Shown piece after piece: positions 3,693 to 14,562 of a DNA stretch of 64,000 nucleotides. The DNA is from Pseudomaricurvus alkylphenolicus. Its GTDB lineage: Bacteria > Pseudomonadota > Gammaproteobacteria > Pseudomonadales > Cellvibrionaceae. Under the pieces are notes generated by a model, which did no database searches, was not told the origin of the DNA, and saw nothing but the letters and a program-made list of their open reading frames with translations. Each line of letters starts with the position of its first letter. Position 1 is the stretch's first letter. The stretch spans positions 62,001 to 126,000 of the forward strand of contig NZ_JAAQPI010000013.1 in NCBI RefSeq assembly GCF_011683955.1, in the 5' to 3' direction. Position numbers and translations under genes: made by a program.

Positions 3693-4364
3693 CTACCCAG
3701 ACAACCAGCGTTCAACCATAAATGCTTCCGCTGCGGGGTACCCTACCTCGCAGCCGCGCCGACGGCACTGCGCCTGAATGGATTCTAATGATCTAACATG
3801 CGGAAATTCTCGCAGCTCATCAGCATAACACTTCAGCGCCAACAACTTAGTCTCCAGGCTAGATTCAATATTCTGGTAGAAGTTAGGTCGGAACACTGGC
3901 ATAGCACTGGAAGCCCATTCGGTACTTGAAGCCACTTCAAAGGTCAAGATTTTCCTGACAGATTGCTCCGGTTGCGGTCGACAAGCCGTCATCACTGCTT
4001 GATGTACTTTTCTATGGTCCACATTCAAATCGCCTCCGTGATGCGTAAATACGGTATCGGGACGAAACTCAGCAATTACCTTCTCCACGGATTTAGCCAA
4101 ATCTAGCAATGCGATAGAGTCCATCTTATTGTCAGGGAAATTTTCCCAATGAAGCTTTTTGATGCCCAGAACCGCAGCGCTAGCTTGTGCCGACTTGCGC
4201 CGTTTACTAACAGATTTGGAACTCACACTGTCCCTTGAGCTCTCACCATCAGTCAAAAACATGGTTTCAACTTCAACTCCCTGTGCCGCCAGAAGGGCGA
4301 TGCTGGCACCGCAGCCTAAAGCTTCATCGTCAGGGTGGGCAGCTACCACTAGTACTTTCTTCAT
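3693..4364 (-). CDS. PIG-L / LmbE family deacetylase
   Basis: The 223-residue product is a zinc-dependent N-deacetylase-like protein. The zinc and catalytic motif AHPDDEALGCG is at residues 9-19, and a second His-rich segment HHGGDLNVDHRKVH supplies the later ligand and helper residues. Family members remove N-acetyl groups from GlcNAc-type sugars or conjugates. It is the last gene of the long minus-strand operon that starts with pseB and lies 12 bases downstream of the WbqC-like gene. In this context it may de-N-acetylate a sugar intermediate so that another acyl group can be attached, but that step is inferred, not shown. Confidence 0.88.
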   Translation of the reverse strand: MKKVLVVAAHPDDEALGCGASIALLAAQGVEVETMFLTDGESSRDSVSSKSVSKRRKSAQASAAVLGIKKLHWENFPDNKMDSIALLDLAKSVEKVIAEFRPDTVFTHHGGDLNVDHRKVHQAVMTACRPQPEQSVRKILTFEVASSTEWASSAMPVFRPNFYQNIESSLETKLLALKCYADELREFPHVRSLESIQAQCRRRGCEVGYPAAEAFMVERWLSG

Positions 4365-4376
4365 CAGTTCTCCCAG

Positions 4377-5057
4377 TCAAATATAGCCTTGAGCCCCTTT
4401 GGGCCCGCTATTGAAGAATAGATCCAGGCAGCTCAGCCATGGAACAAAGTCCTCGCCCGACTGCGGGTAATTCTTGCACTGATAGTCGTGATAAGACAAG
4501 GTGACAGATGCCTGACGCCAGTTATTAGGCTCCAGGTAGTTTCGCCCCAATGAACCGGAGATATATTCAGTTGCTCCCAAGACCTTACAGATGCCCAGCA
4601 ACAGTTGCTCGCCCTTAAGATCCTCACGAAGATTCAGATTAGAGGCGAATTGTATCGAGCAATCGACTGACAACCAATTGAGAAATTTGCTGATAAGATC
4701 ATGATTCAGATCCATTAGTCGATCATATCGCTGTGCGAAAGCCTGTTCCAATGCATCGATTACCTCCACATAGTAGGGAGCCTTGGAGTAGGCATGGTGC
4801 AGAGTGTTGAGTAATTTTCGCTGCCAGCTTTGTCCATTATCTATCCGTGTTTCTAGAATCAACTGATTTTGACTGACTTTGATCACTGGAACCGTTAACC
4901 AGACTTCTCCGTTCCGGGTAAGTATGCGGTTTCGATTTTCCCAATCCCTTGGAGTATATTGAACGTTATCGAGATATACAAAGGTGTCGGCCAAGCGAAA
5001 TCGATCCAGATAATTCAGTGCCGGGACAAACCTAGGCTGACTGATCACAAGTTTCAA
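4377..5057 (-). CDS. WbqC family protein
   Basis: The 226-residue protein begins MKLVISQPRFVPALNYLDRF and continues with FVYLDNVQYTPRDWENRN and VWLTVPVI. These are recognisable WbqC-family segments from O-antigen and surface-sugar loci. The biochemical role of the family is poorly defined, so I give no reaction. It has no membrane segment. Its start overlaps the stop of the upstream methyltransferase by four bases, which places it firmly in the pse operon. It is likely to act on a nucleotide sugar or nonulosonic acid precursor made by the neighbouring genes. Confidence 0.8.
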   Translation of the reverse strand: MKLVISQPRFVPALNYLDRFRLADTFVYLDNVQYTPRDWENRNRILTRNGEVWLTVPVIKVSQNQLILETRIDNGQSWQRKLLNTLHHAYSKAPYYVEVIDALEQAFAQRYDRLMDLNHDLISKFLNWLSVDCSIQFASNLNLREDLKGEQLLLGICKVLGATEYISGSLGRNYLEPNNWRQASVTLSYHDYQCKNYPQSGEDFVPWLSCLDLFFNSGPKGAQGYI

Positions 5058-12422: not shown

Positions 12423-13564
12423 GACAAAAAATCCCGCACTGAAGCCACTACGTGATCTTGCTCCGCCTCTGACAAACCAGGAAAAATAGGCAGAGACAGC
12501 GTCTGGCGATAATAGGATTCAGCGGCAGGGAAATCCCCCCACGAGAATCCCAATTTTTGATAGCTCGGCTGTGTGTGTATGGGAATGTAGTGTACCTGAG
12601 CACCTATGCGCGAACTGCGCAGATGCGCAAACAATCCAGCCCGTTTCTCTTCCGCTACCTTAATAATGTAAAGATGGTAACTGCTGCGTTGTCCGGGCAT
12701 CGGCTTAAGAGTATCGAGAGGTAACTCAGAAAGAAGCTGATCATAGATTTGGGCAATTCTGTTACGCTCAGCCACTGCCTCGTCACAACGGCTCAGTTGA
12801 CTCAGCCCCAATGCTGCCTGCAGATCAGTCAATCGATAATTCCAGCCCAGTTCCTGCTGCTCGTAATACCACGCTCCTTCTTGAGTCTGGATAAAATTTT
12901 GTGGATCACGACAAATCCCATGTTCGCGTAATTGTCGTATTCGTTGATTTAGTATGTCACTATTGGTTAACAGCGCCCCTCCTTCACCAGAGGTAATTAC
13001 CTTGACCGGATGAAAGCTGAATACCGTGATGTCCGAATATCTACAGTCACCTATGCGGGATTCGTCGTACCTTGCCCCAATAGCATGGCAGGCGTCTTCA
13101 ATCAGCGACACTTCATAACGATGGAGCAATTCGCGGATCTCCTTGAGTTGACAAGGATTTCCAGCCATATGTACTGCCACTACCGCCTTTGGTAGACGGC
13201 CACATTTTTGAGCCCGCTCAAGCTTTTCTGACAATCGTTTAGGGCAGATATTCGCATCGGCAGGATCAATATCAACAAAGTCAACTTGAGCTCCACAATA
13301 AAGGCCACAGTTGGCAGAAGCGAGAAAAGATATGGGGGACGTCCAGAGCCAGTCTCCGGGCCCCAGCTCTAGCGCCAGGCACGCTAGATGTAGCGCTGCC
13401 GTACCATTGCTAACCACGGCGCAATGACTAGCTCCAGTGTAATCCGCCAGGGCCTGCTCGAATCTTGGTACCGTTGGCCCCTGGGTTAACCAATCTGATT
13501 TCAATACTTCTACAACGGACGCGATATCTTCGTCGGTAACCGTCTGCTTACCATAGGGAATCAT
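12419..13564 (-). CDS. pseC: UDP-4-amino-4,6-dideoxy-N-acetyl-beta-L-altrosamine transaminase
   Basis: PseC aminates the 4-keto product of PseB using PLP and glutamate. The 381-residue protein begins [20 protein letters not shown] and has [24 protein letters not shown], and [14 protein letters not shown] with the PLP Asp. The Schiff-base Lys lies in [17 protein letters not shown]. This is the DegT/DnrJ/EryC1 fold of standard length. It overlaps pseB by four bases (ATGA), as in other pseBC pairs. Its amino group would then be acylated. The usual PseH acetyltransferase is missing here, which points to the formyltransferase at 5695-6636 or to a gene outside the window. Confidence 0.94.
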
Positions 13565-14562
13565 AGCTGTACGCTATCATGAAGCTTCTTAATATCGTCA
13601 ACGCTAAGAAACCAGGGATTCTTACCCGAATCGTAGCTGAACCCCTGTTCCACGGCAGTTCCTTTTTCCTTCAAGCGATTACAGCCATAGTCAAGGGCTT
13701 CATCGTGAAAGCTGATGCTCGGAGTAATGACATAGTGATCGTGAAACTCCAGAGTCCTGTATGAGTCGTCACGAGGTATCATTTTTTCATGCAATTTTTC
13801 GCCTGGGCGAATGCCGACAATGTTATAGGGCATTCCAGGTGCCACCGCCTCAGCCAGATCCAGGATTCGCACCGAGGGAATCTTTGGAACGAAAATCTCT
13901 CCACCGTACATTCGTTCGAACCCTTTGAGTACCAGGTCCACGCCCTGTTCGAGGGTAATCCAAAAACGGGTCATCTCCGCATCGGTGATAGGCAATTTGT
14001 CCGCCCCCTCTGCCACCAACTTCTTGAAAAAGGGAATCACAGAGCCTCTGGAACCAACCACATTGCCATATCGAACCACCGAGAATCGCGGAAATTCAGC
14101 CCCCACCATATTATTTCCTGCCACAAATAGCTTATCTGATGCCAGTTTGGTGGCGCCGTATAAATTGATCGGGTTAGCTGCCTTATCGGTAGATAAGGCG
14201 ATAACCTGCTTCACTTGATTGCGTATGGCTGCATGAATGACATTTTCGGCGCCAGTAATATTGGTGCGAATACACTCTGTGGGGTTGTATTCGGCCGCAG
14301 GCACTTGCTTCAAGGCCGCTGCGTGAATGATGTAGTCCACACCATTACAGGCTTGGGTCAATCGTTCTTTGTCTCTTACGTCACCAATAAAATAACGCAT
14401 TTCAGGCCCATTGAAGGTCTGCTGCATTTCGTATTGCTTAAGTTCGTCACGGGAGAAAATGATGATTTTTCTAGGCGAATGTCGCCTCAACAACATTTCG
14501 GTGAATTTATGACCAAAGGAGCCAGTACCCCCTGTAATCAGAATGGACTTGTCATCGAACAT
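13561..14562 (-). CDS. pseB: UDP-N-acetylglucosamine 4,6-dehydratase (inverting)
   Basis: PseB starts the pseudaminic acid pathway, converting UDP-GlcNAc to the 4-keto-L-altro nucleotide. The 333-residue extended short-chain dehydrogenase shows [15 protein letters not shown] (NAD loop, residues 6-20), [11 protein letters not shown], and [14 protein letters not shown], the family signature. [20 protein letters not shown] holds the Lys-rich active site of this inverting subgroup. It is the first gene of the twelve-gene operon. A sigma-54-like promoter lies about 65 bases upstream of the start codon, consistent with co-regulation with the flagellum. Confidence 0.95.

Follow-up and report, generated by a model that had tools for sequence, protein, structure and literature searches.

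We analysed a 64,000-nucleotide stretch of the Pseudomaricurvus alkylphenolicus genome (hereafter the window; contig NZ_JAAQPI010000013.1, here C4:62001-126000, from an assembly of 8.88 Mb that is 99.6% complete), which carries an operon related to those for pseudaminic acid (Pse). Twelve minus-strand genes, from PseB (14562) to PIG-L (3693), follow one another closely, no more than 12 bases apart where they do not overlap; they include PseB, PseC, PseG and a complete formyltransferase (FT), and no PseH, the acetyltransferase that normally acylates the PseC product, was found. We tentatively propose, at slightly less than an even chance, that the operon makes a CMP-activated Pse-type nonulosonic acid bearing at least one N-formyl group, with the PseC-derived amine as the most likely target of the FT.

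The formyltransferase and the search for PseH

The PseH model TIGR03585 gave no match at E ≤ 1e-3 anywhere in the source genome (best E 0.26 over 33 positions), and the only GNAT recognised there by PF13302 was a marginal one (25.5 bits) on a different contig. Within the window, a custom profile detected no GNAT at E ≤ 10 among frames of at least 60 amino acids (aa), in agreement with the preliminary description of this DNA, which had reported PseH missing from the window. Of 390 genomes sampled from the order, 77 carry PseG; the PseH search at E ≤ 0.01 returned matches in 75 of these 77 (over the cut-off in 19), the source genome and one other being the exceptions. TIGR03585 was also blind, even at E ≤ 10, to the genome of L023, a related locus that holds a PF13302 GNAT, and distant GNATs can therefore escape detection.

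The FT retains the Asn-His-Asp residues that had been noted before. Within the gene run, 9 bases separate it from the preceding gene, and it overlaps the following one by 1 base. Its place is downstream of the synthase, flanked by two methyltransferases; it does not occupy the position that separates PseG from the synthase in other operons with an FT. The genes of the operon and its flank are as follows (window coordinates).

1-240, plus strand: Maf flagellin glycosyltransferase, 3′ end (whole gene C4:60201-62240; PF20157 and PF01973 in L086:8102-10141)
289-1425, plus: sulfotransferase-like (PF13469/PF00685); tie to the operon uncertain
1422-2786, plus: DUF4910/DUF2172 protein; homologue within the Synechococcus cassette (31% identity to L024)
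2789-3691, plus: open reading frame (ORF) of 300 aa; no Pfam match
3693-4364, minus: PIG-L/LmbE N-deacetylase (PF02585, 107.7 bits); AHPDDE motif intact
4377-5057, minus: WbqC family protein (PF08889, 231 bits); candidate amino-sugar N-acylating ligase
5054-5695, minus: SAM methyltransferase MT3 (PF08242/PF13649)
5695-6639, minus: FT (Formyl_trans_N and Formyl_trans_C); N107, H109 and D145 intact
6649-7329, minus: SAM methyltransferase MT5 (PF13649)
7333-8388, minus: NeuB-family nonulosonate synthase, outside the PseI clade (curated models and trees)
8378-9481, minus: PseG UDP-sugar hydrolase (TIGR03590, 260.9 bits; cut-off 153.55)
9483-10832, minus: class-III GSAM-like aminotransferase (PF00202; PRK06209 407.8, under the cut-off of 486); start probably 60 bases downstream
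10765-11553, minus: SpsF-type cytidylyltransferase (PF02348); exchanges with PseF across operons
11550-12422, minus: aldo-keto reductase (AKR; PF00248); Asp/Tyr, Lys and His motifs present
12419-13564, minus: PseC aminotransferase (TIGR03588, 525 bits; cut-off 423.5)
13561-14562, minus: PseB inverting 4,6-dehydratase (TIGR03589, 547 bits; cut-off 407.75)

The only long overlap in the run, 68 bases between the SpsF and GSAM genes, falls to 8 when GSAM starts at its second methionine; this later start is probably the true one and would account for the overlap. PDB searches with the two methyltransferases and the GSAM-like protein gave general family matches only, leaving their substrates unsettled. 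The AKR, the GSAM-like aminotransferase, both methyltransferases and WbqC lie within the span of the preliminary description and had gone unmentioned in it, as had the adjacent Maf.

Formyltransferase lineages and acylation genes across Pse operons

The best PDB relative of the FT was the formyltransferase domain of ArnA (E ~5e-41), and the best Fmt matched at 8e-31; entries named formyltransferase PseJ (6ci2, 6ci4, 6ci5, 6edk) matched at E ~4e-12 only. In the tree, the window FT formed a separate clade (SH-aLRT 98) with those of L023, from a gammaproteobacterial metagenome-assembled genome, and L024, from Synechococcus, apart from the ArnA clade and from the two clades, class A and class B, into which the small FTs of the order fall. 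The PDB search (for PseJ) and the tree (for class A) thus place the window FT outside the PseJ and class-A lineages. A profile of the small FTs gave no match to PseJ at E ≤ 1e-8 and, in the source genome, matched only the window FT and an Fmt-like frame on contig C23. A structure model of the FT (3 sequences in the alignment, pLDDT 53) was not used.

Both L023 and L024 share the window order of AKR, SpsF, GSAM, PseG, NeuB, MT5, FT, MT3 and WbqC, with identities to the window (L023/L024) of 48/43% for FT, 49/53% for NeuB, 51/44% for PIG-L and 43/43% for MT5. PIG-L follows GSAM in these two loci and closes the run in the window, and SpsF is fused to GSAM in both. An additional FAD-type oxidoreductase precedes MT5 in L023, and the L024 cassette includes a DUF4910 gene. 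A shortened second FT frame stands just upstream of MT5 in L024 (L024:8684-9172), giving the order FT, methyltransferase, FT. Because neither locus matched the window flagellar proteins at E ≤ 1e-8, the cassette is not tied to flagella.

No further member of this FT clade turned up among 390 genomes sampled from the order (searched at E ≤ 1e-35), 398 from the phylum (E ≤ 1e-45) and 380 from the Synechococcus family (E ≤ 1e-60). The order and phylum searches gave 13 and 4 matches besides the window FT, mostly long ArnA-like frames and none within the clade, and the Synechococcus-family search returned the starting genome only. By these searches the block of methyltransferase, FT, methyltransferase and WbqC, accompanied by PIG-L, appears rare, which is an estimate, as the scan of genome contigs for FT relatives used exact peptide patterns that reach close relatives only. 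Two candidate relatives were set aside: the single FT match from the viral-contig scan fell outside the clade in the tree, and a DegT/FT pair in a 1.2 Mb genome (L085) belongs, by ORF reading, to an Ara4N-type cluster and not to the window cassette.

We surveyed acylation genes in about 20 kb around PseG (less at contig ends) in 75 genomes besides that of the window. Exclusion of G149, a genome whose PseG lies on contig fragments, leaves 75 loci to represent 76 other genomes, and several of these loci are truncated by short contigs; genes were counted within 6.5 kb of PseG with custom profiles at E ≤ 1e-5. PseH/GNAT alone was present in 31 loci and none of PseH, FT, PIG-L and WbqC in 21, followed by PseH with FT and PIG-L in 9 (four from one genus), FT alone in 6, FT with PIG-L in 3, WbqC alone in 3, PseH with FT in 1 and PseH with PIG-L in 1. 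Across the same loci, FT and PIG-L occurred together in 12, FT without PIG-L in 7, PIG-L without FT in 1 and neither in 55 (Fisher p 2e-8, uncorrected for relatedness).

In class A (8 loci), the FT stood directly after PseG in all eight, NeuB was the next recognised gene in seven, PIG-L was present in three and no PseH/GNAT was detected in any; one of them, L123, had a weak GNAT (TIGR03585, 27 bits) about 6 kb away. As judged from gene content, exchange of PseH for an FT therefore exists and is not rare (8 of 75 PseG loci), through an FT lineage other than that of the window. An FT in place of PseH is already known: the PDB holds the PseJ entries, and in Geobacillus, according to the available part of PMC5109656, Pse flagellin islands lack PseH and those of type III carry an fmt gene. 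The statement in the preliminary description that it knew of no firm gene assignment with this layout thus calls for correction. All nine complete class-B loci (L080, L090, L101-L103, L105, L110, L117 and L128) carried PseG, PseH, FT, NeuB and PIG-L; on the 4 kb contig of a tenth, L129, PseG, FT, NeuB and a PseF-like gene were visible. A further FT, in L059, follows NeuB in a PseH-bearing operon. From these patterns we offer two rules: an FT after PseG without PseH would indicate a 7-formyl group, and PseH together with FT and PIG-L would indicate re-acylation at the other nitrogen.

Several of these observations weigh against formylation of the PseC amine in the window. The presence of an FT was independent of PseH (p 0.79), with PseH/GNAT near PseG in 10 of 19 FT loci versus 32 of 56 others, and the prediction of an FT from PseH absence is ruled out in this sample; moreover, PseH near PseG is often missing, 33 of the 75 loci having no GNAT by custom profile. 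An FT was present in 12 of 13 PIG-L loci, and because FT goes with PIG-L and not with PseH absence, an FT may act on the amine exposed by PIG-L. The class-B arrangement, an FT beside both PseH and PIG-L, suggests re-acylation of the other nitrogen. The window FT itself is neither of the class-A lineage nor at the PseH position, and since L023 has a GNAT (PF13302, 52 bits) about 2 kb beyond its FT, that FT is perhaps no substitute for an acetyltransferase. The earlier proposal that N7 is formylated rather than acetylated is therefore only partly sustained: PseH was not found, the FT is complete and the exchange is real in eight class-A loci, but the FT is of another lineage and position and tracks PIG-L, and the synthase and WbqC, described below, complicate it further. 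Nevertheless, N7 is our best single guess for the site of the FT, if somewhat under an even chance.

Synthase, N-acylation and CMP activation

The nonulosonate synthase of the window fell under both curated cut-offs (PseI 279 < 340.25; NnaB 343 < 399.65), and that of the sole same-genus genome in the sample, G249, passed the PseI model with 507 bits. In a 76-row tree, built after ten similar loci of one genus (g33) had been dropped, the window NeuB lay outside a 56-row PseI clade (support 100/100) that included G249, seven of the eight class-A operons (L107 outside) and one synthase of each class-B operon; L080, of class B, has a second synthase outside it. The closest group of the window NeuB comprised L023, L024 and a viral contig (100/98), and other WbqC/PIG-L loci joined this group next (98/91); forcing the window row into the PseI clade was rejected in a 43-row hand-picked subset (delta lnL 91.9, approximately unbiased (AU) test p = 0.0006). 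On the PseI model L023, L024 and the viral L138 scored 255-270 bits and the viral L157 225 (over a shortened stretch), all under the cut-off; these four score higher on NnaB, yet below its cut-off. In this tree the viral rows had been collected by WbqC and L023/L024 by FT, long branches were flagged and the group was defined only once the first tree had been inspected; as the viral relatives were fetched for holding WbqC, the NeuB-WbqC association is biased, a further point to be set against our proposal.

Where the preliminary description had listed pseB, pseC, pseG, pseI and a PseF/SpsF-type gene, PseB, PseC and PseG thus score above their cut-offs, the synthase fails as PseI and the cytidylyltransferase is SpsF-type only. 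The window synthase is not PseI by models and trees, whereas seven of eight class-A operons have a PseI-clade synthase, which argues against a simple N7-only scheme. We read this as suggesting that the substrate condensed in the window differs from that of operons merely swapping PseH for an FT.

By sequence, the WbqC family, of which 84 of 349 genomes sampled across the phylum have a member, has no solved relative in the PDB. An AlphaFold2 model of the window WbqC (pLDDT 94.9, 35 sequences) compared with the PDB by Foldseek gave BshC at rank 2 (probability 0.97, E 0.017, TM 0.47 by query). BshC had the highest probability among the best 50 of 325 rows, the next being a glycerol-3-phosphate cytidylyltransferase at 0.51; rank 1 by E-value was a metal-binding protein (probability 0.30, TM 0.21), and no match fell below 1e-3. 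According to the available part of PMC4360819, BshC, which has a core Rossmann fold, is the presumed ligase for joining cysteine to GlcN-malate once BshB has carried out the deacetylation, and at that time no activity had been shown for it in vitro. The fold match is weak by its E-value and TM score, no link in sequence was found (PDB sequence search at E ≤ 10; Pfam BshC over 35 WbqC members), and the window PIG-L has as its nearest PDB entry a diacetylchitobiose deacetylase (E 1.7e-15) versus a BshB-type entry at 6.9e-8, all of which tells against a BshB/BshC-like pair; on the BshB1 model PIG-L scored 71.8 bits, below the cut-off of 182.5.

A fold search of BFVD with WbqC gave five matches at E ≤ 0.001, all nameless viral proteins. 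In IMG/VR, WbqC homologues occurred in 58 putatively viral contigs (L135-L192), often with PseB-, DegT-, NeuB- or PIG-L-like genes: PIG-L was present in 27 and the immediate neighbour in 17, and a PseC/DegT-profile frame was the immediate neighbour in 23, 12 of these frames being short (205-235 aa). WbqC accompanies PIG-L in the window, L023 and L024, but none of the three WbqC-bearing PseG loci in the order holds PIG-L. WbqC proteins have reportedly been proposed to transfer glycine, although the literature search on this point returned no paper. The predicted fold weakly suggests WbqC as a second candidate N-acylating enzyme, with PIG-L as its likely partner, and thereby proposes a role for the family. 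This plausible second enzyme also speaks against the simple N7-only scheme: two plausible N-acylating enzymes, FT and WbqC, face at least two amines, so a formyl group at N7 is not forced.

In a converse arrangement, which we consider doubtful, the FT would formylate the PIG-L-freed amine (N5) and WbqC would acylate the PseC amine (N7). The tracking of PIG-L by FT and the gene content of the nine complete class-B loci favour it, as do the three of 75 loci with WbqC near PseG, all of which lack PseH and FT there; furthermore, 5-N-formyl-legionaminic acid has been reported in Halorubrum (available part of PMC6137143). However, class-B FTs are a lineage separate from the window FT, and of the three WbqC loci one has, by reading, a hexapeptide-type acyltransferase-like ORF, and the contig of one is just 7 kb long.

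The cytidylyltransferase scored 33 bits on the PseF model (cut-off 205.7). Among 77 loci (the 75 PseG loci with L023 and L024), PseF occurred alone in 55 and with AKR in 2, SpsF with AKR and GSAM in 9 and with AKR in 5, and neither in 5; the remaining locus had PseF and a weak SpsF (48 bits) elsewhere. AKR was present in all 14 SpsF loci without PseF and GSAM in nine, with fusions of SpsF to GSAM in six (L092, L099, L116, L118, L023 and L024) and of SpsF to AKR in five (L107, L111, L113, L130 and L131; 541-576 aa). Because SpsF and PseF nearly exclude each other, SpsF very likely takes the place of PseF, with AKR working alongside it, and the window enzyme is a probable CMP-nonulosonate synthetase; the rule we offer is that SpsF replaces PseF and brings AKR. 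The enzymes for 8-amino-Kdo provide a precedent for oxidation and amination at C8, and by analogy with that sugar and one from Flexibacter maritimus, such chemistry is possible for this module. The 8-amino nonulosonic acid of Flexibacter maritimus is recorded in the available part of PMC3210612. Since the module occurs with and without PseH, it is separate from the question of the FT.

That known sugar and the formation of one module by AKR, SpsF and GSAM lend some support to a third target for the FT, either an 8-amine made by AKR and GSAM or, if WbqC attaches an aminoacyl group, the alpha-amine of that group, much as Fmt acts on methionyl-tRNA; the position of the FT after the synthase, between two methyltransferases, would also fit. 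We nonetheless judge this unlikely, as the module also occurs in PseH-bearing operons without FT (L092, L095, L099 and L118) and as both 8-amination and aminoacylation are putative. That the FT targets none of these three amines is improbable. Still more so is ordinary Pse5Ac7Ac, made through an unrecognised acetyltransferase with FT, WbqC and the methyltransferases acting elsewhere: the 33 order loci without a GNAT near PseG indicate that acetylation can depend on a gene located elsewhere or on an enzyme not recognised as such, and TIGR03585 missed the GNAT known in L023, but the FT is embedded in the run and recurs within the same block in three lineages, the synthase is not of the PseI type and the source genome has only its one marginal GNAT.

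Flagellar setting, proposed pathway and known systems

The locus is a flagellin-glycosylation island. Reading of the translations identified FliD, FlaG and two flagellins in the genes that lie upstream of PseB on its strand, and farther out come a protein of the flagellin family, read as FlgL, then FlgK and genes of the basal body; the other flank carries Maf, likely the transferase of the finished sugar, and past it FliS-, FleQ- and FleS-type ORFs, likewise identified by reading. The two flagellins adjoining the operon are long (806 and 818 aa; window 17829-23016). The FliS-region query was matched by three separate ORFs at L086:4338-7919, within the flagellar island beside Maf. G+C content is 43-50% across window 289-14562, the operon and its neighbours, versus about 54% in 33000-64000, as for acquired DNA. 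The source genome (G000) measures 8.9 Mb versus 4.2 Mb for G249, whose locus L083 holds a canonical Pse operon with PseF, PseH and PseI; the window flagellar proteins had no match in the 20 kb around it.

Returning to N7 formylation, we infer a pathway in which PseB and PseC would yield UDP-4-amino-4,6-dideoxy-L-AltNAc and, without PseH, the FT would formylate an amino group, most likely that of PseC (N7 of the nine-carbon sugar). PIG-L would strip an N-acetyl group, probably the GlcNAc-derived one (N5), and a BshC-like WbqC would re-acylate a free amine; the group added would probably be of an amino-acid type and could be altered by the methyltransferases. PseG would then remove UDP, the non-PseI NeuB would condense the altered hexose with phosphoenolpyruvate, AKR, SpsF and GSAM would finish and CMP-activate the product, and Maf would move it to flagellin. 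The sugar is probably more decorated than the textbook version. That formylated Pse occurs in nature, as stated earlier, is borne out by the 7-formamido Pse of a marine Pseudoalteromonas polysaccharide (available part of PMC3210612). More speculatively, and in our view unlikely, the pathway may be modular, with a PIG-L/WbqC unit that deacetylates and ligates an amino acid and an AKR/SpsF/GSAM unit that oxidises, aminates and CMP-activates, giving an undescribed tri-amino, N-formyl, N-aminoacyl, N-methyl sugar on flagellin; if so, WbqC would be a widespread amino-sugar ligase family. Surface nonulosonic acids vary in their N-acyl groups (PMC6388019, available part), and such differences likely matter for phage and host recognition.

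As far as literature searches reach, the methyltransferase-FT-methyltransferase-WbqC block, the non-PseI synthase, the exchange of AKR/SpsF/GSAM for PseF, the FT/PIG-L association and the model-based proposal of a BshC-like fold for WbqC are new. Searches on PseJ, an Anoxybacillus formyltransferase, an O-antigen glycine transferase and SpsF/AKR/GSAM/PIG-L combinations returned no paper, most subscription journals being outside the search.

Compared with the canonical PseB-C-H-G-I-F pathway, the window shares PseB, PseC and PseG orthologues and a flagellin island with Maf, but has no PseH found, a synthase outside the PseI clade and an SpsF-type enzyme for PseF, with AKR, GSAM, PIG-L, WbqC and two methyltransferases in addition. 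The closest solved relative of the FT, the N-terminal domain of ArnA, acts on a UDP-4-amino sugar (UDP-4-amino-4-deoxy-L-arabinose) and shares both formyl-transferase domains and the N-H-D residues; the window FT differs in lacking the C-terminal dehydrogenase domain, in its clade and in its operon. PseJ (by name only) and the class-A small FTs represent, as here, a Pse-type operon without PseH, although class A differs in FT clade, operon position and its PseI-clade synthase in seven of eight loci. The Geobacillus islands, as described, resemble the window in having Pse genes without PseH and, in type III, an fmt gene. Finally, as in the bacillithiol BshB/BshC system, a PIG-L deacetylase shares the operon with a protein whose predicted fold weakly resembles that of BshC; WbqC has 226 aa versus 540 for BshC, with no sequence similarity found, and the window PIG-L scores below the BshB cut-offs.

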